DNA of 56,016 nucleotides from a bacterium (GTDB taxonomy: Bacteria; Elusimicrobiota; Elusimicrobia; UBA1565; UBA9628): contig JAKAQO010000010.1 of NCBI GenBank assembly GCA_021822495.1, positions 1 through 56,016 on the forward strand. Direction: 5' to 3'. The notes under the pieces are model-generated. The model made no database searches, was not told the DNA's origin, and worked only from the letters and a program-made list of their open reading frames with translations. This document shows positions 4,753-52,633 of this stretch, piece by piece (within the stretch, counting starts at the first letter, position 1; every line of letters starts with the position of its first letter). The translations under genes were made by a program, and so were the position numbers.

Positions 4753-5862
4753 TTGCGCTCCATTCAAAATTCTCCCATCACCCTTTTAGCAGGGCCGCGC
4801 CAATGCGGGAAGACGACCCTGGCCAAGCGAATCGCCGAACGAAAGGACGCCGTTTTTTTCGATCTTGAGGATCCCGCGGTTCCACTGCAAAAAGAAACCC
4901 TCGGTCTGACCCTGCGCGGCTTGCGCGGCCTGGTCGTGATTGATGAATGTCAGAGAGAGCCGATGTTGTTTCCGCTCTTGAGGGTTCTGGCCGACCGCAA
5001 GCCTCTTCCGGCAAGGTTCTTGCTTTTGGGAAGCGCTTCTCCCGAGCTCGCGGGCCGAGCTTCCGAGTCTCTCGCGGGCCGAGTTCGCCATGTCGACATG
5101 GGGGGCTTTATCTTGGAAGAAGCGGGAGCGCCCGCGGCCGAAAAACTTTGGCTCAGAGGCGGATTGCCGATATCTTTTTTAGCGAAGTCCGAGGAGGAGA
5201 GTTTTCGTTGGCGGCTTGATTTTATTCGCGCTCATCTGGAAAGAGACATTCCCGCCCTGGGCATTCGCGTTCCCGCCGCGGCTTTGCGCCGATTTTGGAT
5301 GATGCTGTCCCATGTTCACGCGCAAACATGGAATTCCTCGGATATGGCGCGCTCCATGGGAACCCAGGAAGATACCGCGCGCAGATACTTGGATATTCTC
5401 TCGGGTTCCTTCATGATTCGGCAACTACAGCCGTGGTTTGAGAATCTCGGGAAAAGGCTGGTCAAGGCCCCCAAAATTTACTTTCGGGACAGCGGGCTTT
5501 TGCACGCTTTCCTGGGGCTGAAAACGCGGCGGGAAATGTTGACCTTTCCGCGTTTAGGTTTTTCTTGGGAAGGATTCATCTTGGAACAGATTATCGGGCG
5601 TTTTGACGCCGAGCGCAGCGCCTATTTTTATAAAACCCATGCCGGCGCCGAGCTTGATTTGATGATCCTCAAAGGCGGCCGGCGCTATGGATTTGAGATC
5701 AAATACGCGGACGCCCCAACCATGACGCGTTCCATGCACGTTGCCCTCGCGGACTTAAAACTTAAACGCTTGTGGGTGGTTTATCCCGGAACCCGCCGCT
5801 ACAAGCTCTCCAATTTGGTTGAAGCCCTGCCAAGCTCAGAACTCGCGGCGCTTAAAATTTAA
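4753..5862 (+). CDS. AAA+ ATPase with DUF4143 C-terminal domain (copy a)
   Basis: A 369-aa ATP-binding protein of the AAA_14/DUF4143 type: Walker A GPRQCGKTT near the N-terminus, Walker B LVVIDECQR, sensor-like LLLGSASPEL, a central helical/winged-helix part (SSDMARSMGTQEDTARRYLDIL), PKIYFRDSGLLHAFLG, and a C-terminal PD-(D/E)XK-like signature (AELDLMIL then GFEIK). The biological role of the family is unknown. The start used is TTG 4753, preceded by AAGGAAAGGG. An ATG at 4714 is in frame, at the position its promoter predicts, and the intervening codons (HPRKVLKERVLRSIQ) resemble family N-termini, but codon 3 is TAG. The gene may be nonsense-mutated and rescued by the TTG start. Confidence 0.85.
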   Translation: MRSIQNSPITLLAGPRQCGKTTLAKRIAERKDAVFFDLEDPAVPLQKETLGLTLRGLRGLVVIDECQREPMLFPLLRVLADRKPLPARFLLLGSASPELAGRASESLAGRVRHVDMGGFILEEAGAPAAEKLWLRGGLPISFLAKSEEESFRWRLDFIRAHLERDIPALGIRVPAAALRRFWMMLSHVHAQTWNSSDMARSMGTQEDTARRYLDILSGSFMIRQLQPWFENLGKRLVKAPKIYFRDSGLLHAFLGLKTRREMLTFPRLGFSWEGFILEQIIGRFDAERSAYFYKTHAGAELDLMILKGGRRYGFEIKYADAPTMTRSMHVALADLKLKRLWVVYPGTRRYKLSNLVEALPSSELAALKI

Positions 5863-9156: not shown

Positions 9157-9208
9157 AATTCTGGGGACACATCACTTAATTGGAATTAAGTGATGTGTCC
9201 CCAGAATT
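9157..9208. repeat. perfect inverted repeat, 24-bp arms and 4-nt loop
   Basis: The arm at 9157-9180 and its exact complement at 9185-9208 flank the loop TGGA. Each arm contains CTGGGGACACATCAC. The right arm runs into the stop codon (9207-9209) of the giant gene and the left arm ends upstream of ileS. It could terminate the giant transcript, although no T-tract follows, and it resembles the GGGGAC/GTCCCC palindromes found at two other gene ends here. Confidence 0.85.
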
Positions 9209-12200
9209 ATGGTTTCTTTTGTTTCAGGGCGGCGCCTATTCTTGAGAAAATTCCGGGCATGGGCGGGCGATTAATGCCTGAAGCCTCTATCGCCTTAAGT
9301 TCGGCGGCGTCCTGCATTTTTTCCATCAATTCTCCAAGCAAAAGATCGGCGACCTTGGGGGTTTTCAGGAAAGTGTCCGCAGCCTTGGCATTTTTGGCAT
9401 CCAAAAGCTCTTTCGCCTTTTCCGGGGTCACCACATGAGAAAGTTTCTTTAAGGTCCGGTAGCGCTTTAATAAATCCCGGGCCGCAACGATGTCTGGGTT
9501 TTCCAAAGCCTTGGGGTCCAAGGTTAAGCGCTTGACGCTCTTATAAGTCACCGGCGCCTCGGGGTCTTCCGCACTCTCTTTCACTAGTTCAGTGATTTGA
9601 TTCCAAATTTCCGCCTCTTTTTCTTGGGGTTTTTCAGAGATTTCATGCAAATTATCCCAGGCGACTTTCAGATAAGAGGGCGAATCTTCCAGAATTTTTC
9701 CGTCTACAACCCCGGTCACGTTGACCTTGACCCCTTTGGGAATGCGCCCGCTGTCGATGCGGCCCATGAGCTGCTTAAAATTGACCGTGGCCAGATTCTC
9801 GGGATTACTCACATACATCCTAAATTTTCCGTTTTTATAGGCTTCCCCGAATGGCAAATCCAGACCTCTAAACCCGGCTTGACCGACCAGGATCAGGACC
9901 TTCGCCTTCCCGTCTTTCAAAGCGGCTAAATTTTTATATTCCTCGACGCCCGTCTGGCGGCGGTTTTCTTTTTGGAAATTGGTGTCGGGAGTAATTCCGA
10001 CGACAATCTCATCATTAGGAATTTCATTCATCCGCAAGGATTTTCGGAGAGACTCATACTCAGCCTTGGTATCCGCGTAAATAATCGAGAGATTGGGCTT
10101 TTTCTCAAGCATGTCTTTGAGAATAAAATCCTGCGCGGCGTTTTGGGCATTATTACCCGCCTCCGGCTTTAAAATTTGATAATCCACCTGGTACCCCGCG
10201 CTTTCATCTCCAATCACCTTAAAACCCATCTTGTCTTGCATAAAAGGGCGAATGGAATGGGCCAGGGTTCCGGAAAGCCCCAGCATCACGGTTCCGGCCG
10301 CTTTAGCTTTATTATTAAATTTCGCGAAATCAACCACCGCCAGGGAATCAAAATCCAGGGTCAGGGGCTTTCCGTAAAGAGCTTCTAAATAGGAGCGATA
10401 TTCGGTGTCGAGATTGTCCAAGGGAACGCCGTTGAAATATTGGATGACCTCTTGTTTGTTTTTATCGACATTAGTCGCGAAAAGGTCTTGCAGGTTTTTC
10501 TTGGACAACGCCTGAAACCCGCCGCCGTAAATTTTTTCAATCCATTTTTTCGGAGTTCCGTATTGACGGCCAATGACCCCGCCCCAACCCAGGCCCGTCT
10601 TTTTGGCCACCGCGTCAAAAAGCCCTCCGCCAAAGGCGTGTTGATGGCTTTTGAGCATATCAAAATAAACCTGTTCGGGATCCATTTTATAGCGCGCCTT
10701 GAAGTCGGCAAGACTCTTAAGTCCCAATTTTTCATAGAGCGGCGAATGCGGGTCTAAGAGCTGCGCGCGATAAGCCTTGGAGTTGGTGTAATCAACCGCC
10801 TTTCTAAAATCCCGCGTCTGGGCGGCCACCAAGTCCTCAAAATCTTCTTTAAATTCCGGGTTGTTTTTTAAAAGCTCTTTAAAGGTAGCCGGATCGAGTT
10901 CTTTCTTAGGGTCGTATTTCTTAAAGAGCTCCTGGAGTTTTTCCGCCCCTTCGCGAAGAGAGGTTTGAACCGGGTCCAATTCCGGATAACGGCCGACGAT
11001 GCCGTTAAATGAACCCAGGGACAAGGCGGTCGTCATCGCCATCATGTCGTATTCGTCTAAAACCATGTCGTAAAGCTCAAGAGGGTTTGAGCCGCCGAAT
11101 TTATCGGCCTGGGCGAGTTCCGCCCAAAAATCGGAATAGGTTTTGATTTTAAAGCGCGGCTTTCGGCCGCTAAAGGTCGCCAGATACTGATCCATAGTCT
11201 GAGAGGCCAAGTCAGGGTTGGTCGTCAAATACGCCGCGCCGAGTTTCCCGCGAGAGCGAGCGTAGTAATCTAAAAAGTCAAGCATCACGAAACTAAGCAG
11301 GGTTTTTCCGCCCGAGGTTTTAAGCAAATTGAAAATGCGGTTTTCGCCTTTCGACAGTTCTTTTAAGGTCGCTAGTATTTGGCGCGCCTGAAGCTCCCTA
11401 AAACTCTTAATCGGGTTTCCGCGCGCGTCCCGCAATTGCCGGTCTTGAGGAACTTCAAGCTCGCGGGTTCCATCCGGCAAGGTTTTCCATTCTCCAAAGC
11501 GCTGTCCAAAAACTCCTCTTTCCCAGACGGATTTGACTAAATTGACGGACAAATCCATCCGGGTCTGGGAAATTTTTCCCTTCTGATAGGCCTTAAAATT
11601 TTCCGCCAGTTGCCGGTCCACCGCCTGCGTATAGGCGTCGGACTCCAAGGTTTTTCTCATTACCCGAAGGGCCTCGGCGGTCTTGACGTGCCCCGCGCTT
11701 GAAAGAGACGAAATCTTTTCATCCATTGTCTTGTGAATCGAATCAATCAATTCGTCCGCAGCGGCGTCCGAAGCGGTTTGAATGAGATGATTCTTGGCGG
11801 TTTCCAAAGCCTGGGCGCGCGTATTATTTCCGTCTTTCTCAAGAGAGGCGATTTTTTCATTCGCCGCGTCGACCAAATCGCCCAAGGAACCGTTTAAATT
11901 AAGCCCATTTTTTTTAATTTCCTCGTCAATAGCCGACGCCCGCGATTCATCTCCCGAAGCCTTCATCTCCTCTAAAGCGCTCGCGGCTTTCTCTTGCCCG
12001 GCCTTTTCCCACCAACTCTCAGAAGCGCCGTTTTTCCCGGCTGATTGCGCAAGGCCCTCGACTAAAATATCCTGCGGAGCGTAAACATCTCGGCCTAAAT
12101 GCAAACTCGCGTTCCAAAAATTCTTGCGCAGAAATTTCAGGGTCCCTGAAGAATTAATCTGGGCGATTGCCGCCATGGATTTAAGTTTCTCAAGCTCCGG

Positions 12201-15200
12201 CCCTGAGACAACCGCCGATGTCCCGTCCTTTGATGCCAAAGTCAGGGAATCTCCCGCATCCAATACCTGGACCCTTAAAGATGAACTCTTCATGAGCCGC
12301 TGGTTTAAAATCTTTCTCGCGACATCAACAATGGAATCAGACAAGCGAAAATCTGAATTTTTTGCGAGAGTCTCTATTTCTTCCTGGGACAAGGTTTTAG
12401 GCCCCGCCTCTTCCGTCTTTCCGGCGCCGCCGAGAACAGCGTTTTCATCAATTTTTCCGAGACTCAGAGAAGCGGAGGGCGCGCGAGTAAATTTAAAAAA
12501 CTGGTTATTGTCTTTTTTGTCGGCATTGAGAAGAAGGGCAAGTTCTGAATCCGAAAAGCTGTCCAAACGTTTTCGCATCGCTTCTTCTCTCCACTGGGAA
12601 GTGACTTTAAAAACCCCCATGGGAGGACGTTTCTTCACCCAAGAATCCCACGCCCACTGGGCTCTTTCCTTCCATGCCCTGGGAGAAAGAATCCCCACCG
12701 AATCCGAAAACGATTTTTTATAAGTCAGCGTGTAATCATCCGGCAAGGCTTCGATTTCTTTGCTCCGGCCTTCCGCCATGAGATTGGCAAAACCAGCCTG
12801 TTCTTCTTGTTGATCCGCGATATCCTCGCTTTTTCTCATCGCCGTGGTCGGCAAAAAGAGCCAGGAAACTTGATTGGCGGCTTGCCCGGCCTGGAAGGAA
12901 TTGGCGATATTTTGGTCCCGGGCGGTTTTCCCGGTTTCGGGATTATCCTTATAATCGCCCATCTTCGAATGATAACCATAGTCGGCTTGTTCAACCAATA
13001 TCTGCGCGCCAAGACCGGTGAAAAAATACTTCGCCATGCCGTCGGCCATGCCTCCGGCCCAAATAGCAACCCGGTAAAGAGGCCTCAAAAGACTCGGAGC
13101 GGTTTGAGCGTACATCTGCAGCGCCCCCAAGGGTCCGGATTCGGCCACCGACTCTGAAACACGCGGAATCAGTTTCAGTTTCGCCGCCGATTGAATGGTC
13201 CAACTGAGCGGCCCCGGGGTATCGGCGACGCTTTTAACGAAGGAGCTGAATCTGTTTCCAAGAACTCCGAAGGCCGGAGCCTGAATGGGACTGGCCATCA
13301 TCAAAGGGGTCGCGCGGGCGCCGAAAGCCGCTCCATAAACCGCGCCTTCTTTAAAAGCCTCTCCTGCGGTTTCGTATTGAGAGGTTTGCGGGTTTAACCA
13401 GTAAGAACCCGCGCTCATAACTCCTGAAGCCCCTCCCATAATCAGGGCATTAGTCCCTTGCATCTTTAAGGAATTAACCACGCTTTTACGGCCGATTTGA
13501 ACGACGGTTTGGAGGGGAGATAAAGATTCTCCCTTGGATCCGATTTCGGCCAGCCCCAGGGCGTTTTTAGTCCCGGTCGCCCAACCATGGGCCGTTCGAC
13601 CAAAGAACTCAACCGTCCCGCCCAAAACCTTTTTCGTCCACGCGCCGACTCGCCCCAGAGAATCCAGGCTCTGAGATAACCGCCCCAAGGCCGAGGCGTC
13701 ATCAGCCGCTTCGGCCGCGCGCAGAGCCTGTCCAGAGTCAATGACGAACTGGGTCAATCTTTCCGCTCCGATGGCGGCGCCCCCAATAAAAGTCGAATAA
13801 GCGCTGAAAGCGGCCGCGTCCACGGCGGCCGAGGCTAACTGATAGCCCAAAATCAAGGTTTTAACATGGGAAAAAAGATCTCCCATAACGCCTTGAGCCT
13901 CCGTCCCGGCGCTATCCTCCGGAATCTCGGTCATAAAGCCCTCGAAGCTCAAATTCGCCGCGGGGTCTTTAAGCAACTGATCCGCCGTATAATTTTTAAG
14001 AGTCGTTGCGGCCATCTCCGGGTCCAGAGCGCCAATTTTTTTGAATGCCTCGCTATAATTGCCCTGATTCATTAAGTAAAGAACTCGATCGCGTAACGGC
14101 TCGTTGGCCATCAATTTTTGATAAGCCTCCTTCGTCAACCAATTATGGGCAAGCAAAATCCCTGTCGCGCGGTCTCTTTGTCCCAATTCGGCTTTATTCG
14201 CCCCCGTGTTGAGAAATCTTAAACTTCCCAAATACTGGAGTTTTTGCCAGAAACCCTTTGGATGAGCCAAGGAGGGTTTGGAACTGGCGTTTTCCCTTAA
14301 AATTTCATCAAGCTCATTAAGTTCGGTAAAGGCCTGAATGCGACCCGTAAAATTCTGAAACCCAGCCAAAATCTGACTATTAAAGATGCTGAGCTTAAGA
14401 CTTTTCTCCTTAATTTCTTTTTTATCCAGAACTTTTTGAAGGCCGAGCTCCGAAAGAAGGTTGGGAAAGCGGTCTCTCAAAAGAGCCGCCGCCCGGGCTC
14501 TGATAGAGCCGTCATCGGGCAAATCTCCAGCGGCTTTGAGTTTGGAGGAGAAGGCGAGAAGATCGTCGGATACTTTTTTTTGTTCGGGCGAAAGATGGGC
14601 CAGAAAATCTTGATAAGTTTGGCCCTTTATCTCCGAAAGAGAGTTCTTAGCCTGATAATGATCCTCGACCTTGGCGAATTCCCGCGCGAGATAAAGGGCC
14701 CTTAAATCTTCCACCTCCGCCTGGGACTTCTCCATCTTCTTTTTCAACTGAGACCCGTAAAGTTCGGCTAAGGACGCGTTGAGCAGATTAAAATAGAGAT
14801 TCGAGGCGTCTTTTTGAAGAGCCGCGGCCTCTTCCTTGTCTGAAATCTCTCGCATCTCTTTTTCATATTCCTTGGCCACTTTTTCAAGCCTTTTGGCCTC
14901 TTGTTTGGCCGCCACACTCGTAAGGCCCAGATAAGTTTGAAATTCTCCATTTTTGAGTTGCCCGACCTGTTCGGACAAATTCTCAAGCTGAAGGATGCGG
15001 ATATTGTTTTGGGCGATTTGGAGCCAATGATCGCTGAGAGACAAGGCCTCATTTTTTTCTTCTTTCGAGAGTCCCATCTTTCCGGCTCTTTTACGGCTTG
15101 TTTCGGCATAAGCCATCGCCAGCATCGCGTTGGAGGAGGCCGCTAAAACAGCAGGCGGAACGAATTTTCCCGAGCGTTCATTGACCTTGGATTTGACCCA

Positions 15201-16430
15201 ATGATGGGCGAGTTTTCCTTCATTCAAATCGGTTAAGGTTTTCTGGAGTTCTTCCGGCGTATGAGAGCCTAAACCCAAAGCGCCGGACTGTTTGTTGGAT
15301 AACTGAGTTCCAGTAAGCTGACTCACCTCCTGGGTTAAAATCCCTAAAAGAGCTTTTTGCGTTTGCCTGGTTTTTTTCTTGATTTCAAACGCCATTACGG
15401 CCTGGCGGGCCGCGTCCAAGGTTCTCCAGTTCATATTTTGAAGAACGCTTTGATTTTCCAAGCCCCCATTGTTTGAAATGGTTTCCAAATCTTGCAGATA
15501 TTCGAGAAAAGTGACCGTCTGGCCATGGGCATCCTTAAAAGAGGCCGCGGCAAATTCCGCCTGATTTTTTTTATATTTTTCGTAAAGCTTCTGGATATCC
15601 GCCCGGCTCAAACCCTCTCTTTTGCTCCCGAGAGGATTTGCGCAATCCGTATTGGGAATACGCGGCGGGTTTTCTCCATTATTAATTAGGCGGACGACCG
15701 CGCATTGGTCATAATAAATTTTTTTAAGATTTTCGAGCATCCGCTGAAAAGCGCGGCTGTAGAGAAGTTTTTTGTCATGCGCCGCGCCTTTTTTAATATC
15801 CACAAAAACAACGTCTACATAACGCTTCCCTGGATTTTGGGGATCGTCTTTTTCCATCGTGACCAAAAAACTCTGGTATCCCAAATCCGTCACTTTCTGA
15901 TACCCCAGGGTTTTCCCCAAGCTCATTTGTTCGATGCGGAAAACGCGGGTATCGCCCTCGGATGAAATCTGTTCGGTATTGACGTCTTTATCGTAGGCCC
16001 ACTTGGCCGCAGGGGCCATGCCGTCAAACAAATGAGCCATTTGGATTCCGACGTCTTGACTCTGAATGGAAGAGCCCCCTTTTCCCTTTGGGGACGCGCC
16101 CACGGTCGTTTGAACCATGGTTTTAAGGGTCTTCGTCACCGAGGGCGGCAAAGCCACTTGCGCGCAAGACGCATCGTGGCTTTGCGGGTCGCACCCGACC
16201 GACTTTCCGTAGCGTTCAAGAAAATCCATCGCGTGCTGGCGCATTTCTTCCGACATTCCGGCAACGATGGACTGATTTTGGAGTTGCGTAAAAACAGAAC
16301 TCAGGCTGACATCACTGGTATCGACATTATGGGAAACTGCCTCTTGAGCCAGGGCCGGGGAAGCCGCCTCAAAAAGCGGCAAAAACGCCAGAATTCCAGA
16401 TAACCCCGCGCCGATGATTTTCTTTTGCAT
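9207..16430 (-). CDS. giant exported protein with C-terminal SecA-like SF2 helicase motifs
   Basis: A 2407-aa protein. The N-terminus is a convincing signal peptide (MQKKIIGAGLSGILAFLPLF then ASPALAQ). Residues of about 30-850 and 1200-1690 are helix-rich and highly charged; small-residue hydrophobic stretches occur near 857-889 and 993-1010. The C-terminal 600 residues carry an SF2 set: TSGGKT (1705-1710, motif I), DEYD (1792-1795, motif II), LSGT near 2051 (motif III-like), AGFRGLD near 2185 (motif V) and QLMGRIDSGR near 2220 (motif VI). The order and spacing resemble the SecA DEAD core, but SecA-specific domains are not recognisable. It lies 31 nt after another exported protein and probably shares its promoter. 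Export of an ATPase-like protein is unexpected; the function is unknown. Confidence 0.8.
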   Translation of the reverse strand: MQKKIIGAGLSGILAFLPLFEAASPALAQEAVSHNVDTSDVSLSSVFTQLQNQSIVAGMSEEMRQHAMDFLERYGKSVGCDPQSHDASCAQVALPPSVTKTLKTMVQTTVGASPKGKGGSSIQSQDVGIQMAHLFDGMAPAAKWAYDKDVNTEQISSEGDTRVFRIEQMSLGKTLGYQKVTDLGYQSFLVTMEKDDPQNPGKRYVDVVFVDIKKGAAHDKKLLYSRAFQRMLENLKKIYYDQCAVVRLINNGENPPRIPNTDCANPLGSKREGLSRADIQKLYEKYKKNQAEFAAASFKDAHGQTVTFLEYLQDLETISNNGGLENQSVLQNMNWRTLDAARQAVMAFEIKKKTRQTQKALLGILTQEVSQLTGTQLSNKQSGALGLGSHTPEELQKTLTDLNEGKLAHHWVKSKVNERSGKFVPPAVLAASSNAMLAMAYAETSRKRAGKMGLSKEEKNEALSLSDHWLQIAQNNIRILQLENLSEQVGQLKNGEFQTYLGLTSVAAKQEAKRLEKVAKEYEKEMREISDKEEAAALQKDASNLYFNLLNASLAELYGSQLKKKMEKSQAEVEDLRALYLAREFAKVEDHYQAKNSLSEIKGQTYQDFLAHLSPEQKKVSDDLLAFSSKLKAAGDLPDDGSIRARAAALLRDRFPNLLSELGLQKVLDKKEIKEKSLKLSIFNSQILAGFQNFTGRIQAFTELNELDEILRENASSKPSLAHPKGFWQKLQYLGSLRFLNTGANKAELGQRDRATGILLAHNWLTKEAYQKLMANEPLRDRVLYLMNQGNYSEAFKKIGALDPEMAATTLKNYTADQLLKDPAANLSFEGFMTEIPEDSAGTEAQGVMGDLFSHVKTLILGYQLASAAVDAAAFSAYSTFIGGAAIGAERLTQFVIDSGQALRAAEAADDASALGRLSQSLDSLGRVGAWTKKVLGGTVEFFGRTAHGWATGTKNALGLAEIGSKGESLSPLQTVVQIGRKSVVNSLKMQGTNALIMGGASGVMSAGSYWLNPQTSQYETAGEAFKEGAVYGAAFGARATPLMMASPIQAPAFGVLGNRFSSFVKSVADTPGPLSWTIQSAAKLKLIPRVSESVAESGPLGALQMYAQTAPSLLRPLYRVAIWAGGMADGMAKYFFTGLGAQILVEQADYGYHSKMGDYKDNPETGKTARDQNIANSFQAGQAANQVSWLFLPTTAMRKSEDIADQQEEQAGFANLMAEGRSKEIEALPDDYTLTYKKSFSDSVGILSPRAWKERAQWAWDSWVKKRPPMGVFKVTSQWREEAMRKRLDSFSDSELALLLNADKKDNNQFFKFTRAPSASLSLGKIDENAVLGGAGKTEEAGPKTLSQEEIETLAKNSDFRLSDSIVDVARKILNQRLMKSSSLRVQVLDAGDSLTLASKDGTSAVVSGPELEKLKSMAAIAQINSSGTLKFLRKNFWNASLHLGRDVYAPQDILVEGLAQSAGKNGASESWWEKAGQEKAASALEEMKASGDESRASAIDEEIKKNGLNLNGSLGDLVDAANEKIASLEKDGNNTRAQALETAKNHLIQTASDAAADELIDSIHKTMDEKISSLSSAGHVKTAEALRVMRKTLESDAYTQAVDRQLAENFKAYQKGKISQTRMDLSVNLVKSVWERGVFGQRFGEWKTLPDGTRELEVPQDRQLRDARGNPIKSFRELQARQILATLKELSKGENRIFNLLKTSGGKTLLSFVMLDFLDYYARSRGKLGAAYLTTNPDLASQTMDQYLATFSGRKPRFKIKTYSDFWAELAQADKFGGSNPLELYDMVLDEYDMMAMTTALSLGSFNGIVGRYPELDPVQTSLREGAEKLQELFKKYDPKKELDPATFKELLKNNPEFKEDFEDLVAAQTRDFRKAVDYTNSKAYRAQLLDPHSPLYEKLGLKSLADFKARYKMDPEQVYFDMLKSHQHAFGGGLFDAVAKKTGLGWGGVIGRQYGTPKKWIEKIYGGGFQALSKKNLQDLFATNVDKNKQEVIQYFNGVPLDNLDTEYRSYLEALYGKPLTLDFDSLAVVDFAKFNNKAKAAGTVMLGLSGTLAHSIRPFMQDKMGFKVIGDESAGYQVDYQILKPEAGNNAQNAAQDFILKDMLEKKPNLSIIYADTKAEYESLRKSLRMNEIPNDEIVVGITPDTNFQKENRRQTGVEEYKNLAALKDGKAKVLILVGQAGFRGLDLPFGEAYKNGKFRMYVSNPENLATVNFKQLMGRIDSGRIPKGVKVNVTGVVDGKILEDSPSYLKVAWDNLHEISEKPQEKEAEIWNQITELVKESAEDPEAPVTYKSVKRLTLDPKALENPDIVAARDLLKRYRTLKKLSHVVTPEKAKELLDAKNAKAADTFLKTPKVADLLLGELMEKMQDAAELKAIEASGINRPPMPGIFSRIGAALKQKKP

Positions 16431-31098: not shown

Positions 31099-32271
31099 TT
31101 AAATCAGGGCAAGCAAAAACTTATCCGCCGATAGGATTCGGGTCCCTTCGCTCAGAACATCGACGCCGCTTTTTTTAATCACTTGGTATGAAAAAGGAAT
31201 TTTCAGCTTTTCCCTAAAATACCTCAAGTGAGGCGACGCGCTTAACTCCTGCAATTTAACCTCAACCGCAAACCAGGGGCGCTCATCCACCGTCACTAAA
31301 AAATCCGCTTCGCGCTGAGCTTCGTCCCGCAAGAAATAAAGCTCAGCTTTATAGCCTTCTCGGTCTCTCAGCCAGTGAACCAACTTTAAAAGATTTGACG
31401 CAATCAAATTCTCGAACCGCGCGGCTTCGCCCGAAACTTCCGACCAATCCCACAGATAAAGTTTGGGAACTTTCTTAAGCGAACGGAAGGAAGACCGCGC
31501 GTAGGGATGAATACGAAAGTGGTAATAGAAAGATTCCAGAATGTCGAGCCAATGCGCGGCCGCGCGGTAGCTGACGCCTAAGTCCTCGCGAATGGAGTTA
31601 ACCGATAGGAGAGCCCCGACTTTTTCCGGAAGCATGTCGCTTAAAAGCTTCATGCGCCCCAAATCGCGGATCAGCTCCACATCTTGGATATCCTCGCGGA
31701 AAAGCCGCTCATTGCGTTCATTATGCCAGCGCCTGAGCAGGCGCTCTTCCTGAGAAAGAAACGGTTCGGGAAAACCGCCGAACTTGTCCAATGCCGTCAA
31801 GAGATCCCCGAAAAAAACCTCTTGAATAGGAAGTTCCTTAAAGGGCTGCAAATTTGCTTTTCTTCCGCTTAACTCCGCCAGGGAAAACGGATGCAAGCGG
31901 TAAAGATGATAACGCCCTTGAAGGGAATCGCCTCCTCTTCGATAGATGTCCAGCCGCGCGCTTCCAGTAATGAGAAATTTGTAACGAGTCTTAAGGGAAT
32001 CGTATTGCCCTTTGAGAAAGCCCTTCCACCCCTTGAACTTATGAATTTCATCCAAAATTAAAAGTTTCGCCGAAGCAGGCCAACGGGCCGCCATTAAATC
32101 CCTCCGATTTCCCTGGTTATCCCAATTAAAATAAGCCGCCTGCCGGAAATGTTTTCCAATGATATCGGCAGCCAGCGTCGTTTTACCGATTTGCCGCGGT
32201 CCCGCGACGAAGACCATTTTCTTAGACAAATCCTCGAGAATGGAAGATTCAAGATAGCGGCTACGGACCAT
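31099..32271 (-). CDS. AAA+ ATPase with DUF4143 C-terminal domain (copy b)
   Basis: Start ATG 32271 (MVRSRYLESSILEDL), 390 aa; a further 15 open codons upstream would run into the operator. Walker A is GPRQIGKTT, Walker B LLILDEIHK, sensor LITGSARLD, then a region with HPFSLAEL. The winged-helix-like part is NSIREDLGVSYRAAAHWLDIL, then PKLYLWDWS, and the nuclease-like signature is EADFLVTVDERPWFAVEVK. The Walker A, Walker B and EVK residues are all kept, so the gene looks functional. Role unknown. It stands alone between an unrelated membrane operon and ssrA. A TATACT hexamer ends 6 nt before the ATG. Confidence 0.88.
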   Translation of the reverse strand: MVRSRYLESSILEDLSKKMVFVAGPRQIGKTTLAADIIGKHFRQAAYFNWDNQGNRRDLMAARWPASAKLLILDEIHKFKGWKGFLKGQYDSLKTRYKFLITGSARLDIYRRGGDSLQGRYHLYRLHPFSLAELSGRKANLQPFKELPIQEVFFGDLLTALDKFGGFPEPFLSQEERLLRRWHNERNERLFREDIQDVELIRDLGRMKLLSDMLPEKVGALLSVNSIREDLGVSYRAAAHWLDILESFYYHFRIHPYARSSFRSLKKVPKLYLWDWSEVSGEAARFENLIASNLLKLVHWLRDREGYKAELYFLRDEAQREADFLVTVDERPWFAVEVKLQELSASPHLRYFREKLKIPFSYQVIKKSGVDVLSEGTRILSADKFLLALI

Positions 32272-32277
32272 GAAGAT

Positions 32278-32331
32278 AGTATATAAATAATTTACCCCCA
32301 AAGCAAAAAAATACATATATTTTTTTGCTTT
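32278..32331 (-). promoter_or_regulatory. promoter of DUF4143 copy b with 14-bp inverted repeat
   Basis: TTGCTT, 17-nt spacer and TATACT end 6 nt before the ATG at 32271. A perfect 14-bp inverted repeat (32300-32313 and 32318-32331, arm AAAGCAAAAAAATA, loop CATA) overlaps the -35 and extends upstream. Its position suits an operator; its T-tract could also make it a terminator. Confidence 0.6.
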
Positions 32332-40393: not shown

Positions 40394-41590
40394 TCACCCC
40401 GACACCCAGTTCTCGCAAGGCGCGGAAAAGAAATCCTTAAGCGGCATTCCTGATGCGCCCACCAAGAGCTTTCTTTGAGGATGAAATTCCCGGGCAAACT
40501 CAGACATCCCTGGCAACGAATTCACCGCTCGGGAAGTCTTGACCTCAATGGCCGTCACCCCCGCCTTGGTCTTGACCACGAAATCAACCTCATGATTACC
40601 TTGCCGCCAGTAGAAAACATTGGTCCCTGTTCCAACAAGGCCGTTGACCAAATGCGCCCCGACCGCCGATTCGACCAGACGACCCCAAAAATGAGGATTT
40701 TCCCGCGCGGCGGAGAAAGAATAATCGGCCATGCTCGTCATGAGCGCGGTATTAAGGACCAAAAATTTGGGGCTTGAACCCCGCTGTTTAACCCGGCTAC
40801 CAGAATACTTCTGAAGTCCGGTCAGCATCCCCGCTCCCGAGAGTAAATCCAAATAATGCGCCAGCGTCACGGTATTTCCGGCATCATGAAGCTGCCCCAA
40901 CATTTTATGAAAGGAAAGAATCTGCCCGGAATAATCGCAGCCCAAGTGAAACAACCGTCTTAAAAGGGCCGGCTTATCCACCCGAACTTGAAATAAAATA
41001 TCCTTTGAGAGAGTCGTCTCGATGAGGGAATCCAAAACGTAGCGGCGCCACCTCTCTTCCTCGGCGATAAGGCCCGCGGCTCCGGGGTAGCTCCCAAAAT
41101 ACAGATATTGCTCGAGATTCCAGCCAAAAGCCTCTTTCATCTCGGAAAAAGACCAATGCCCCACGCGCACGACCTCAAAGCGCCCGGCCAGACTTTCGCT
41201 TAAGCCCTTTTGCATCAAAAGCGGGGAAGAGCCGAGCAACACGGTCTTAAGGTTGATCCCCGAGGCCGTATCCTCGTCCCATAATCTCTTGACCAGTTCG
41301 GACCAGCCAACCACTTTTTGAATCTCATCGAGAACAAGCGCACAGGAGCCTCCACTTCTAGCCCGCAGCCGAGCGATGTCCCATTGCGCTTCAAGCCAAG
41401 TCGGGTCCCGGGGGGCGGGCGCGTCAGCCGCGGCATAATGCGCGTCTTCACCAAAAACCTCAAGGGCCTGCCGAATGAGCGTCGTTTTCCCCACTTGTCG
41501 CGGGCCAATGATGATTTGAATAAACTTTCGAGGCTCCTTGAGCCGCCTCAAAATAGTCTTCAAAACAGGGCGTTGATAAGCGGGTTTCAT
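40394..41590 (-). CDS. AAA+ ATPase with DUF4143 C-terminal domain (copy c)
   Basis: A 398-aa protein. Walker A GPRQVGKTT, Walker B ALVLDEIQK, sensor VLLGSSPLL, FEVVRVGHWSFSEM, a winged-helix-like part (LSFHKMLGQLHDAGNTVTLAHYLDLL), PKFLVLNTALMTSM and the nuclease-like HEVDFVV then AIEVKTS. It looks intact. The ATG at 41590 lies inside the promoter palindrome and has no Shine-Dalgarno; the mRNA should be leaderless. It separates two glycosyltransferase remnants, so it has displaced glycan genes. Role unknown. Confidence 0.88.
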   Translation of the reverse strand: MKPAYQRPVLKTILRRLKEPRKFIQIIIGPRQVGKTTLIRQALEVFGEDAHYAAADAPAPRDPTWLEAQWDIARLRARSGGSCALVLDEIQKVVGWSELVKRLWDEDTASGINLKTVLLGSSPLLMQKGLSESLAGRFEVVRVGHWSFSEMKEAFGWNLEQYLYFGSYPGAAGLIAEEERWRRYVLDSLIETTLSKDILFQVRVDKPALLRRLFHLGCDYSGQILSFHKMLGQLHDAGNTVTLAHYLDLLSGAGMLTGLQKYSGSRVKQRGSSPKFLVLNTALMTSMADYSFSAARENPHFWGRLVESAVGAHLVNGLVGTGTNVFYWRQGNHEVDFVVKTKAGVTAIEVKTSRAVNSLPGMSEFAREFHPQRKLLVGASGMPLKDFFSAPCENWVSG

Positions 41591-41750: not shown

Positions 41751-42929
41751 TTGCCGGACATATTTAAACCAATGTTTACCCGCGTTATCAAGCCCAGTTT
41801 GAATTCTAGTTTTTTTCTCTTCGGTCCGCGCGGATCGGGAAAAACTCATTTCATAAAAAATTATTTCCCGGAATCAGAGGCTTTTTATTTAGACCTTCTC
41901 GATCCAGACGCGCAACAGAATTTAGTTCTTCGTCCACGAGGACTCACGGAAAGATTAGCGGCTCTTTCTCCCAAGGTCCAATGGGTCATTATTGATGAAA
42001 TCCAAAAAATTCCATCCCTGCTGGACGTGGTTCACCAACAAATCGAGCGAAAACGATTTAAATTCGCCCTCACAGGCTCAAGCGCGCGGAAATTAAGACG
42101 CGGAGCGGCCAATCTCTTGGCCGGACGAGCCTTCCTTTACCACCTTTTCCCGCTTTCAAGCCGCGAAATCGGAGAGGACTTTTCGCTGGAAAAAGCTTTG
42201 CAATGGGGAACTCTCCCCCGGCTCTTTTCCTTGCCCGAAAAACAAGACAAAATCGATTACCTGCGCGGTTACGCCCATGTCTATCTTCAAGAAGAAATCA
42301 TGCAGGAACAAATCGTACGTCGCCTTGAGCCTTTTCGGCGTTTTCTACAAATCGCCGCTCAAATGAGCGGACAGATCGTCAATTTCTCAAAAATCGCGCG
42401 GGATTGTCAAACGACGGTTCCAAGCGCCCAAACCTATTTTCAAATCCTCGAGGATACCCTGGTCGGATTTTTCCTGGAACCCTTTCATGAATCCGTCAGA
42501 AAAAGACAAAGAGAAAGCCCCAAATTTTATTTCCGCGACCTGGGAATCTCACGCGCCTTGGCCGGGGTTTTATCAGTGGACGTCCTGCCTCAAACCTCCG
42601 AATTCGGCGCCGCTTTCGAGAATTTTCTCATCAATGAAATTCTGCGTTTGGCGGATTATCAAAGAAAGGAATGGCGATTCTCTTATTTGAGGACCAAGGA
42701 CGGGGTCGAGGCGGATATGATCATCGAACGCCCAGGCCTTAAACGCGCGGTCATTGAAATCAAATCCTCCGAGCGCATTGTTTCTGAGGATTTGCGCGGC
42801 TTAAGACTTTTAGCTCCAGACATTTCTCATAGCGAAGCTTTTTGTCTTTCCCGCGATCCTAACGCCAAAAAAATCGACGGCATTCATTGTCTTCCATGGA
42901 CGCGCGGGCTTATTGAACTCGGGCTTTAA
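41751..42929 (+). CDS. AAA+ ATPase with DUF4143 C-terminal domain (copy d)
   Basis: A 392-aa protein if it starts at TTG 41751, 385 aa from ATG 41772 (MFTRVIKPSL), which resembles family starts; the promoter spacing favours the TTG. Walker A GPRGSGKTH, Walker B WVIIDEIQK, sensor ALTGSSARKLRRGAANLLAGRAF, HLFPLSSREIG, GTLPRL, LQEEIMQEQ, a winged-helix-like FSKIARDCQTTVPSAQTYFQIL, PKFYFRDLGISRALAG and EADMII then AVIEIKSS. It belongs to the ARKLKRG-ANLLAGR subgroup, like copy g and the fragments at 47, 50 and 53 kb. It looks intact; role unknown. Confidence 0.88.
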   Translation: MPDIFKPMFTRVIKPSLNSSFFLFGPRGSGKTHFIKNYFPESEAFYLDLLDPDAQQNLVLRPRGLTERLAALSPKVQWVIIDEIQKIPSLLDVVHQQIERKRFKFALTGSSARKLRRGAANLLAGRAFLYHLFPLSSREIGEDFSLEKALQWGTLPRLFSLPEKQDKIDYLRGYAHVYLQEEIMQEQIVRRLEPFRRFLQIAAQMSGQIVNFSKIARDCQTTVPSAQTYFQILEDTLVGFFLEPFHESVRKRQRESPKFYFRDLGISRALAGVLSVDVLPQTSEFGAAFENFLINEILRLADYQRKEWRFSYLRTKDGVEADMIIERPGLKRAVIEIKSSERIVSEDLRGLRLLAPDISHSEAFCLSRDPNAKKIDGIHCLPWTRGLIELGL

Positions 42930-43831: not shown

Positions 43832-45130
43832 ATGAAAGAACGTCCCTATCTTCGTCTTTGGGAAAATATCTCCGAAAGCAAGTGCATGGCGTTTATTTCT
43901 GGCCCTAGGCAAGCAGGAAAAAAGATCCCAGCCCAAGCCGTCGGCGCTGCGATCGCGATCGCTCTCATATCTCTTCCGACAACCTTACCGTTCAAGGGGA
44001 TTTGCGCGGCGGCAATCGTCGCGGCCGCGATCTGCCTGGGATTCTTGACGCGATTTCGATTTCCATTCCGCCCTAACGCGGCCCCTCCCCGCCCGCCGCC
44101 CGATTGGCCTTCCGATGGCCTTCAAAAGCTCGGCTCTTGCCCCGTCTGCCAAAGCCCGCGGCGACAGACACTTTACGAAGGCCTCACCGATCGGACATTC
44201 TTCTGCGCCCCCGGCTCGTGGACGTTGCATCAATGCTCTGACTGCGGTTGCGCCTATTTGGATCCCCGGCCGGCTCCGGAAGCCATCTCCCTGGCCTACA
44301 GCTCCTATTTCACCCATGACAGTAGCAATGGCCGCGATACAGCAAATCTTTCCGGCTTGGCCTTCTGGCGCCGGGCCTTTGACAACAGCTATGTGAATTG
44401 GCGCTTTGGAACTCGCTTCCATCCCGTGGCTCCGATATGGGGAAGAATCCTTGTCTCCATAATACCCTTCGAACGGGCCAAATTGGAAGCTGAAGGACGG
44501 AATCTGCCAAAGCCGAAGGACGGTTCCAGGCTTTTGGACGTAGGTTGCGGCAACGGCGCCTTTCTCACTTTTGCCCGGAGCATGGGTTATGACACTATGG
44601 GAACCGATGTGGATCCCAAAGCTCTCGATATCGCCCGCTCGCAAGGCCTTCGGGTTTTCCAAGGAAGCGTGGATGATTTGTCAGGGTTTGAAGCGGCCTT
44701 TGACGTCATTACCCTTTGTCACGTCATCGAACACGTGCATGATCCGACGCGACTATTGCGCCGTTGCCGTGAGCTCCTTAAGCCTGGCGGCTTCCTTTGG
44801 ATAGACACGCCCAACATCGACAGCCAAGGCCACCGCATCTACGGGGCGCATTGGCGAGGATTGGAACCGCCGAGGCATCTCGTAGTGTTCTCGTGGGCCT
44901 CCTTGGAAGCGGCGCTTCGCCAGGCAGACTTCGGGAGAATCGAACGTCTTCCCTGGCAACCTTCTTGCGCTGGCATGTTCATGAAGAGCGAGGTGATTCG
45001 CTCGGGGAACGACCCCCGAGCGAGAGTCAATCTTTCTTTCCGGGACCGAGCTCGAGGCTTGGCCCCGGAATGCCGCGCCCTCCTGAATCCAAGCGTCAGG
45101 GAAACAATCGGGCTCAGAGCGTGGAGTTGA
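43832..45130 (+). CDS. SAM-dependent methyltransferase fused to a DUF4143 N-terminal remnant
   Basis: A 432-aa frame in three parts. Residues 1-30 (MKERPYLRLWENISESKCMAFISGPRQAGK) are the start of a DUF4143 ATPase, cut inside Walker A. About 31-75 hold two hydrophobic segments of unknown origin. From about 98, a zinc-ribbon-like CPVCQSP...CSDCG is followed by a class I methyltransferase: LLDVGCGNG (motif I), VIEHVHDP and LLKPGGFLWIDTPN. Such proteins occur in glycan clusters. Codon use in the methyltransferase part is more GC-rich than in its neighbours, suggesting recent transfer. The fusion keeps the frame and the DUF4143 promoter, so the gene may be expressed from a captured promoter. Whether the fused head is kept in the protein is unknown. 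Confidence 0.7.
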   Translation: MKERPYLRLWENISESKCMAFISGPRQAGKKIPAQAVGAAIAIALISLPTTLPFKGICAAAIVAAAICLGFLTRFRFPFRPNAAPPRPPPDWPSDGLQKLGSCPVCQSPRRQTLYEGLTDRTFFCAPGSWTLHQCSDCGCAYLDPRPAPEAISLAYSSYFTHDSSNGRDTANLSGLAFWRRAFDNSYVNWRFGTRFHPVAPIWGRILVSIIPFERAKLEAEGRNLPKPKDGSRLLDVGCGNGAFLTFARSMGYDTMGTDVDPKALDIARSQGLRVFQGSVDDLSGFEAAFDVITLCHVIEHVHDPTRLLRRCRELLKPGGFLWIDTPNIDSQGHRIYGAHWRGLEPPRHLVVFSWASLEAALRQADFGRIERLPWQPSCAGMFMKSEVIRSGNDPRARVNLSFRDRARGLAPECRALLNPSVRETIGLRAWS

Positions 45131-49283: not shown

Positions 49284-50435
49284 TCAAGACTCAAAAAGCT
49301 CGCGAAGCCCGCTTTGCCAGGGTCTGATAGCCACTCCCCGGATCGCTTTCGCGGCGTGGCCCTCGTAAAAAAGCCAACAGCGATGCGGACGGCGGTAATA
49401 ATTTTTAAAGCTCTCGAAACCCTTTAATTCCTCGCTCCGGACATTTTGGGAGGCCTTGATTTCGACGGCGTGCGTTTCTCCCCCCATTTCAACGATTAAA
49501 TCCACCTCGGCCCCATGCTCGGTTCGGTATCCGCTGAGCCGAATATCCAAATCCCGAGCGGCGGCCTCATGAAGAATTTGGGTGACGATCAGATGCTCAA
49601 AGAGAACCCCCCGGCGATCCGAAGACACCGTGAAATTGCCGAGAAGCCCGTTGAGAACCCCGGGGTCAAAGAAATAAAAGCGCGGGTGTTGAATCAGGCG
49701 CCTGACCGAGCTTTGGGCGAAAGGCTCTATTTTTCGCGCCAGAAGAGAATCCTCCAATATCTCAAAAAACCGCACCACCGATTGCCGGGGCGTTTGAGCG
49801 GCGGAGGCTATTTTAGAGAGGTCCAGGAACTTCCCTGAACTTTCCGCGGCGTGGCGCAGAAAACGCGCAAACCCCTCCAGATTTCTCGCGAGACCCTCGG
49901 CCTGAACTTCTTCTTTGACATAGGCGGCCGCGTAAGTTCTCAAGGTCTTTTCTTTCTCCAGCGCGTTTGGCTCCGTCCATATCCCGGGCAAGGTCCCATG
50001 GCTCATGGCTTCATCGCCGCTGAAATCATATCCCAGTTCCCCGGCGCAAAGAGGCCCCATCGTAAAGGAATGGATTCTTCCCGGAAGGAGATTAGCGCGC
50101 CCGCGCTTGAGTTTGCGAGCGTTAGAGCCGGTCAGATAAAACCGAAAGCGGCCGGGAAACTTGTCGAGGAGAAATTGAATCGTGTTGAGGATGCTCGGCA
50201 GGCGCTGGATTTCATCAATAAAGACCGTCATTGGAGAGGCCGCGGCTTTAAGGCGTTCCTCGAGTTCCCGGGGATTGCCTAAAAAATCAAGATAGGTCGG
50301 CTCATGCGCCAGATCGATCTCGATGTCCGGGAGCAGGCTTTTCATCAAGGTTGATTTTCCCGTCTGCCGCGGGCCGAGAAGGAGAACGCTCTTTTTTCCG
50401 CCCGCCAGAACGCGGCCCAGCCCTCTTGTTATCAT
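49284..50435 (-). CDS. AAA+ ATPase with DUF4143 C-terminal domain (copy g)
   Basis: A 383-aa protein. Walker A GPRQTGKST, Walker B VFIDEIQRLPSI, sensor LTGSNARKLKRGRANLLPGR, then MGPLCAGELGYDF, GTLPGIW, VKEEVQAEGLARNLEGFARFL, LDLSKIASAAQTPRQSVVRFFEIL, PRFYFFDPGVLNGLLG and AEVDLIV then HAVEIKAS. All core motifs are intact. The ATG lies 6 nt after TAAAAT with no Shine-Dalgarno. Its promoter starts exactly where an older DUF4143 fragment (50473-50842) is interrupted, so this copy has landed in a previous one. Role unknown. Confidence 0.9.
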   Translation of the reverse strand: MITRGLGRVLAGGKKSVLLLGPRQTGKSTLMKSLLPDIEIDLAHEPTYLDFLGNPRELEERLKAAASPMTVFIDEIQRLPSILNTIQFLLDKFPGRFRFYLTGSNARKLKRGRANLLPGRIHSFTMGPLCAGELGYDFSGDEAMSHGTLPGIWTEPNALEKEKTLRTYAAAYVKEEVQAEGLARNLEGFARFLRHAAESSGKFLDLSKIASAAQTPRQSVVRFFEILEDSLLARKIEPFAQSSVRRLIQHPRFYFFDPGVLNGLLGNFTVSSDRRGVLFEHLIVTQILHEAAARDLDIRLSGYRTEHGAEVDLIVEMGGETHAVEIKASQNVRSEELKGFESFKNYYRRPHRCWLFYEGHAAKAIRGVAIRPWQSGLRELFES

Positions 50436-51412: not shown

Positions 51413-52633
51413 GTGTTTAAAAATATTTTCAAGCGGGATATTATTGATCAAATCGACAAATATTTGGAGACCGACGACGTCGTGGTCCTCCATGGGGCCC
51501 GCCAGGTCGGGAAAACCTCCATTTTACTTTACCTTCAGGATCGTCTCAAAGTTGCGGGGCGCCCGGTCTATTATCTCGATCTCGAGGATGGGCGATACAA
51601 ATCCCTTCTGGACCTAGGCCCCGGAGAATTCATCAAACACCTCCGGGAAAAAGGCTTTGACGCGGAAAGCCGCGTTTTTGCCCTAGTAGATGAGATTCAA
51701 TATCTTGAAAATCCCTCTTCCTTTCTTAAGCTGATGGCGGATCACCATAAAAACATCAAGCTGATCGTCTCCGGGTCCTCTAGTTTCGCGATTAAAAGCA
51801 AGTTCAAGGATTCCTTGGTCGGGCGTACGGTGGATTTCGAGGTTTTTAACCTTTCCTTTCGCGAGTTCTTGTCTTTTAAAAAAATTCCTCCCCCTCCCGA
51901 ATCGGCCGGGGAAATGACGGCGCCGGGACTTGAGGAACTGATTTCTCTCTATAAAGAATATGCCCTTTACGGCGGGTACCCCAAAATCATCTTGACGGAT
52001 TCCATCGAGGCCAAGGAAAAATATCTCCAGCAAATCATTGATACCTATGTGAGAAAAGATATTGGGGATCTGGCGGGGGTGCGGGACATAGGGAAATTCA
52101 ACAAACTCCTTGAGGTTTTGGCGTCTCAAAGCGGGCAATTGCTGAATGTCCGGGAAATTTCCAGCACCTGCGCGATAGCCAAGCAAACGGTCGAGAAATA
52201 TCTCTTTATTTTGGAGAACACCTATATCTTGAAGCTCGTTAAACCCTATAGCCGCAATATCCGCTCGGAATTGTTCAAGGCGCCTAAAATATATTTTTAT
52301 GATTCCGGGATCATGCAGATGCTCTGGCTGAAATCCCTCCAGTCGGAACTAATGGGAAATGTCCTTGAAACGAGCGTTTTTTCCGATTTGGCCAAGAAGT
52401 ATTCGGTGCGGGATGTTTATTATTGGCGGACACAGGACAAGAAAGAAATTGATTTTATCCTTAGGCGGAAAGCTTCGGTTTTGCCGATCGAGGTCAAGAT
52501 GAATTTTGGGCAGTTTAACCCCCATCCCGTGAATTATTTCCTGCGCCGCTACGCCCTTTCCGAATACCGGCTCGTGGGCCTTAAGGGCAAGGCCGAAGGG
52601 CAGTTTGCAACCTATCCCTGGTGGATTTCCTAG
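51413..52633 (+). CDS. AAA+ ATPase with DUF4143 C-terminal domain (copy e)
   Basis: A 406-aa protein with GTG start (MFKNIFKRDIIDQIDKYLE). Walker A GARQVGKTS, Walker B FALVDEIQYLENPSSF, sensor LIVSGSSSF, FNLSFREFLSFKK, GGYPKIIL, TYVRKDIGDLAGVRD, a winged-helix-like NVREISSTCAIAKQTVEKYLFIL, PKIYFYDSGIMQML and EIDFILRR then PIEVKMN. It is of a different subgroup from copies d and g (no ARKLKRG motif). Intact. Flanked by 91-bp direct repeats. Role unknown. Confidence 0.9.
   Translation: MFKNIFKRDIIDQIDKYLETDDVVVLHGARQVGKTSILLYLQDRLKVAGRPVYYLDLEDGRYKSLLDLGPGEFIKHLREKGFDAESRVFALVDEIQYLENPSSFLKLMADHHKNIKLIVSGSSSFAIKSKFKDSLVGRTVDFEVFNLSFREFLSFKKIPPPPESAGEMTAPGLEELISLYKEYALYGGYPKIILTDSIEAKEKYLQQIIDTYVRKDIGDLAGVRDIGKFNKLLEVLASQSGQLLNVREISSTCAIAKQTVEKYLFILENTYILKLVKPYSRNIRSELFKAPKIYFYDSGIMQMLWLKSLQSELMGNVLETSVFSDLAKKYSVRDVYYWRTQDKKEIDFILRRKASVLPIEVKMNFGQFNPHPVNYFLRRYALSEYRLVGLKGKAEGQFATYPWWIS

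Follow-up and report, generated by a model that had tools for sequence, protein, structure and literature searches.

The closest described relatives of the protein reported here are the SF2 helicases and translocases (DEAD-box, ResIII, Snf2, RIG-I and Mfd) and SecA. ATP is not expected in the extracytoplasmic space, which counts against the export of a motor of this kind. Preprints have described giant proteins from the Omnitrophota, which may have domains in common with it. Huge proteins are reported to be enriched in Elusimicrobiota and Omnitrophota and to be functionally unassigned in them (PMC11573180); those proteins are longer than 5000 aa and the main text of that paper includes neither a helicase nor SecA, whereas most members of the family described here measure 2400-3400 aa.

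The window, meaning the whole stretch of DNA analysed (56,016 nucleotides from a member of the Elusimicrobiota), encodes a giant protein of this family (component C), in which a signal peptide is combined with an SF2 core, and a second exported protein (component B) directly upstream of it. The giant has no above-cut-off match in Pfam or NCBIfam and no clear match in PHROGs or PADLOC, and no paper on such an exported SF2 system was found in a literature search that lay outside preprints and most subscription journals. According to the initial annotation, no described system of this type is known, and both the curated families and the searched literature agree with it.

Export signal and architecture of the giant protein

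The giant gene is an uninterrupted open reading frame of 2407 aa on the minus strand, a strand that the initial annotation had left unnamed, with its ATG at 16430, and it is present in one copy in its own 2.2-Mb genome (its parts are listed in Table 1). The protein begins with MQKKIIGAGLSGILAFLPLFEAASPALA (residues 1-28), whose start is basic and which goes on to a hydrophobic core and an AxA cleavage site, the predicted cut falling between ALA and QE. Net-positive start, hydrophobic core and AxA site are kept in 28 of 28 relatives with a readable N-terminus, the calls being based on these three classical features and on conservation, with relatives that end at contig ends left out. The Sec signal peptide first read from the sequence is therefore borne out, none of the 28 readable relatives being without one, and two distant members of another family (5022 and 6078 aa) bear a signal peptide too. 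At the signal-peptide end a PGxxx[YW]-type motif, mostly after A, S or T, is seen in both giant families (for example in the giants of loci L036, L039, L044, L055 and L167, and in protein c7 of L038), and it may be a sorting signal.

Table 1. Features of the giant gene, its partner and the second giant found in relatives
Feature	Position	Strand	Basis
Giant exported SF2 protein (component C)	9207..16430	-	ORF; single copy; relatives by protein search
Sec signal peptide, residues 1-28, predicted cleavage after ALA	16347..16430	-	sequence; conservation
N-terminal region, residues 29-840, helix-rich by eye	13911..16346	-	sequence, cysteine counts
Middle region, residues 841-1250, conserved Gly/Ala-rich mildly hydrophobic helical segments	12681..13910	-	alignment, hydrophobicity scan
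Linker, residues 1251-1639, evolves fastest	11514..12680	-	dN
SF2 lobe 1, residues 1640-1822	10965..11513	-	motifs, profiles, dN/dS
Motif I TSGGKT, residues 1705-1710	11301-11318	-	sequence
Motif II DEYD, residues 1792-1795	11046-11057	-	sequence
Insertion between motifs II and III, residues 1823-2029	10344..10964	-	alignment lengths
SF2 lobe 2, residues 2030-2271	9618..10343	-	motifs, profiles, model match
Motif III SGT, residues 2053-2055	10266-10274	-	sequence
Motif V GFRGLD, residues 2186-2191	9858-9875	-	sequence
Motif VI QLMGRIDSGR, residues 2220-2229	9744-9773	-	sequence
C-terminal tail, residues 2272-2407	9210..9617	-	sequence
Exported partner (component B), 739 aa, signal peptide MSQKNWRVFALDICVLFGALPFLLAAAA	16462..18681	-	ORF; homologues upstream of giant
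c7, examples in relatives	L037 3-10589; L038 14748-19001; L036 15769-18999		

A conserved SF2 core

Motifs I, II, III, V and VI occur in order with their catalytic residues and are conserved in about 32 family members. Pfam profiles recognise the region in relatives: among 26 lobe-1 sequences, 22 match ResIII, at a best E of 1.7e-8, and 15 match DEAD, and 9 of 20 lobe-2 sequences match Helicase_C, weakly. In profile comparisons both lobes align in register with DEAD-box helicases, taken from the same genomes as the giants, and with SecA, the respective E values being 1.2e-5 and 3.4e-5 for lobe 1, and 4e-7 and 2.6e-5 for lobe 2. The AlphaFold2 model of residues 1620-2407, for which five close sequences were the input, has a mean pLDDT of 43 with lobe 1 poorly modelled, and a Foldseek search with it gave no match at E <= 0.001. 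Lobe 2 of this low-confidence model matches the second lobes of SF2 proteins, with Z of 7-9 and rmsd of ~3-4 A over ~120-135 residues in most of the matches, and all 50 chains among the matches listed are SF2 proteins, a comparison that leaves room for other families.

The giant thus appears to carry an intact SF2 core, an assignment to the superfamily that can be called secure on motifs and profiles. With SecA and DEAD-box profiles scoring at about the same level, the SecA label is insecure, and of the initial annotation the SF2 motifs stand, together with the SF2 fold in the modelled lobe, whereas the description of the core as SecA-like has to be given up, DEAD-box profiles matching at least as well. 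The sole SecA-like feature is the long insertion between motifs II and III, placed where SecA has its cross-linking domain and, by alignment lengths, much longer in other families of the window's order. A SecA paralogue working as an ordinary preprotein translocase would account for this insertion and for the hhalign alignment to SecA in motif register, but this reading is very improbable and was rejected: the match to DEAD-box profiles is as good or better, SecA_DEAD (PF07517) is matched by just 1 of 26 lobe-1 sequences, weakly, and its cut-off is passed by no giant in the 28 genomes searched, the giant bears a signal peptide, and a normal SecA is encoded separately in the window's genome. 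Some genomes of family f2 (G034, G037, G039 and G041) encode a second SecA_DEAD protein that is longer, with open frames of 1110-1643 aa.

Within the genus, dN/dS is 0.034 for lobe 1, 0.060 for lobe 2, 0.061 for the insertion and ~0.10-0.12 for the rest of the mature protein, rough values with dS near or above 1, and dN is highest in the linker. Purifying selection acts throughout the protein and the SF2 core is its most constrained part. Because the constraint is strongest where the ATP motifs lie, the motor probably hydrolyses ATP, and SF2 catalysis seems to have been kept. These data also bear on an artefact, be it a gene fusion, a mis-assembly or a spurious signal peptide, which the strangeness of the combination alone would suggest, the close relatives coming from metagenome-assembled genomes; the chance of this is negligible, as the same single-ORF architecture, under purifying selection throughout, recurs in about 28 separate assemblies, which rules out an assembly error.

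Location of the SF2 region

Secreted proteins are low in cysteine, autotransporters above all, according to a review (PMC3297439). The SF2 region of the giants has 6 cysteines in 33,669 residues (0.018%) and none in 28 of 31 relatives, the rows of these counts being kin to each other and not independent samples. In the same genomes, cysteine makes up 0.69% of DEAD-box helicases (present in 29/29) and 0.59% of SecA (present in 14/14), and in exported S41 proteases it is at most 0.17%, with none in 22 of 30, some of the residues counted there coming from upstream non-coding extension. Near-absence of cysteine, unlike cytosolic DEAD-box helicases and SecA and like S41 proteases, is indirect evidence in favour of a place outside the cytoplasm, and the SF2 region is probably extracytoplasmic. 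Elsewhere, the cysteine content is 0.024% in c7, a second exported giant of the gene cluster described below, and only 0.14% in a cytosolic ClpA-type ATPase of the window; c1 to c4, which are smaller exported proteins of the cluster, are not poor in cysteine, and the N-terminal part of the giant does have cysteines, in even number in most relatives having any. An oxidising periplasm is a weak explanation of the pattern, because DsbB or VKOR was found in few of these genomes.

The hydrophobicity scan places the most hydrophobic segment of the middle region near residue 872; an AlphaFold2 model of this region (491 aa), with five close sequences as input, reached a pLDDT of 35. If the N-terminal part were exported and this segment stopped transfer, the SF2 domain would remain cytoplasmic and its ATP hydrolysis would drive an envelope machine, an arrangement that would remove the ATP problem and would go well with the inner-membrane-anchored proteins of the cluster. 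Several relatives (L051, L061, L053 and L054) have a TM-like version of the conserved segment, and in some of them, such as L051 and L061, it could hold the SF2 domain inside. In the window's genus, by contrast, it is not TM-like and is too weak (estimated dG about +3), a positive-inside bias is absent across it (46 vs 49 K/R), and the SF2 region is almost cysteine-free, unlike cytosolic SF2 proteins, so that a motor held in this way is considered unlikely.

ATP hydrolysis and export fit together if the motor works in an ATP-containing compartment beyond the cell's own envelope, or if a membrane segment holds it inside, and the first of these is preferred because of the cysteine exclusion. The initial annotation had left the choice between a protein held across the membrane, one delivered into another cell and a domain with a new use; cysteine exclusion and, in this genus, weak mid-protein hydrophobicity oppose a cytoplasmic SF2 domain, and none of the three options is proven.

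Distribution and gene cluster

Relatives of the giant were found by protein search in 40 of 57 genomes, and the lobe-2 profile matches 40 of 295 genomes of the phylum, nearly all in families f1-f3, which are the window's order, and none of the listed genomes of f12, which are small; genomes scored as having no giant may be incomplete assemblies. Most genomes of the order encode one such giant, usually with B directly upstream. A scan of wider genome contigs with the window protein alone, which reaches close relatives only, gave 4 records, and when viral contigs were searched with single proteins, and likewise plasmids and phages, no relative came up.

The exported 739-aa protein already singled out as the partner of the giant is a conserved one: in about 19 other loci, a homologue lies immediately upstream of the giant. 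In loci with more sequence, a frequent order is c3 (1-4 copies) - c4 - c2 (A) - B - giant, after which c5 and c7 sometimes come. Protein A starts with a hydrophobic anchor and is otherwise Gly-rich, and its gene lies on another contig in the window's genome. Both c3 and c4 look membrane-anchored from their sequences; c3 forms a Gly-rich family of up to four neighbouring copies, anchored at the N-terminus and bearing hydrophobic segments at the C-terminus (L102, L103, L105 and L106), and c7 follows the first giant in several relatives, neither family being in Pfam. Cluster proteins have no informative Pfam match except c5, a Y1_Tnp-type protein. Close to the giant there is often a single Y1_Tnp-type gene, REP-associated transposase-like (L044 16327-17259; L036 14635-15624; L054 3206-4123).

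The A gene is more broadly distributed than the giant, being found in 85 genomes, family f13 included, and no giant adjoins A in the five f13 genomes read; an older membrane cluster therefore seems either to have gained giant and B or to have lost them. In f13, the A gene lying apart from any giant is near dnaX-like and ComEC-like genes (L210, L213 and L214).

Elsewhere in the window, six AAA_14 + DUF4143 ATPase genes are scattered within 48 kb (4753-5862, 31099-32316, 40394-41590, 41751-42929, 49284-50435 and 51413-52633). A further ORF at 43832-45130 has an AAA_14 ATPase-like start (GPRQAGK) and a Pfam methyltransferase domain at 223-367, and is possibly a remnant of one gene joined to another.

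A possible motor outside the cell

In the reading that we favour, the giant chain would be threaded through Sec, its N-terminal part would assemble with B in the envelope, the mildly hydrophobic middle region would let it enter or cross a membrane, and the motor would act where ATP exists, most probably once it has been presented to another cell or delivered into one. Giant and B, along with the inner-membrane-anchored cluster proteins present in most relatives, would form an envelope or surface apparatus. Taken as a full chain of steps from Sec export of the giant, with its SF2 motor extracytoplasmic, to delivery, this proposal is tentative and falls short of being probable. The broader proposition, that a phylum-specific export apparatus puts an SF2 motor that works and runs on ATP outside its own cell, in a target cell or at the surface, has in our judgement an even chance of being right.

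With regard to delivery of the giant, neither an immunity gene nor a variable toxin end was identified, nor was a secretion system. A strict polymorphic toxin was rejected, the SF2 C-terminal region being the most conserved and no small downstream gene recurring among ORFs of at least 100 aa. The vertical single-copy conservation of the giant makes it look more like a housekeeping part than a weapon. Such conservation would also suit a core physiological role in the handling of nucleic acids at the surface or in the periplasm, where an SF2 core of the envelope would bind or move DNA or RNA, using released extracellular ATP or working with no turnover. Nucleic acids are the typical substrates of SF2 cores, and the export evidence (signal peptides and cysteine comparison) applies to this role equally; it is nonetheless unlikely, given that motifs for ATP hydrolysis under such strong constraint speak for a real use of ATP and that a sustained ATP supply in the envelope is not known.

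Should the motor work outside the cytoplasm, it would break the rule by which SF2 ATPases usually remain in places that have ATP, and would point, in a little-studied phylum, to an unknown system concerned with delivery, the surface or nucleic acids. An SF2 domain that faces the cytoplasm would instead be a motor of a new kind for an envelope machine. At either location, the conserved pair and its cluster, nearly all of whose proteins have no known family, are directly testable.

Comparison with known systems

Large delivered toxins and contact-dependent effectors resemble the giant in being exported and of giant size, with a hydrophobic middle and an enzymatic domain near the C-terminus. The giant is unlike them in its conserved, single-copy enzyme domain and in that no variable C-terminal end, no immunity gene and no known delivery domain are seen. 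With SecA it shares an SF2 core in which an insertion separates motif II from motif III, and an in-register alignment, but it has a signal peptide, is no nearer to SecA than to DEAD-box helicases, and is accompanied by a true SecA encoded separately. From the known SF2 proteins it is set apart by its signal peptide, its huge size, the exclusion of cysteine, the long stretch inserted between motifs II and III and the want of an assignable SF2 family, while the order of the motifs, the Pfam matches and the match of the modelled lobe 2 are what it has in common with the SF2 helicases and translocases.
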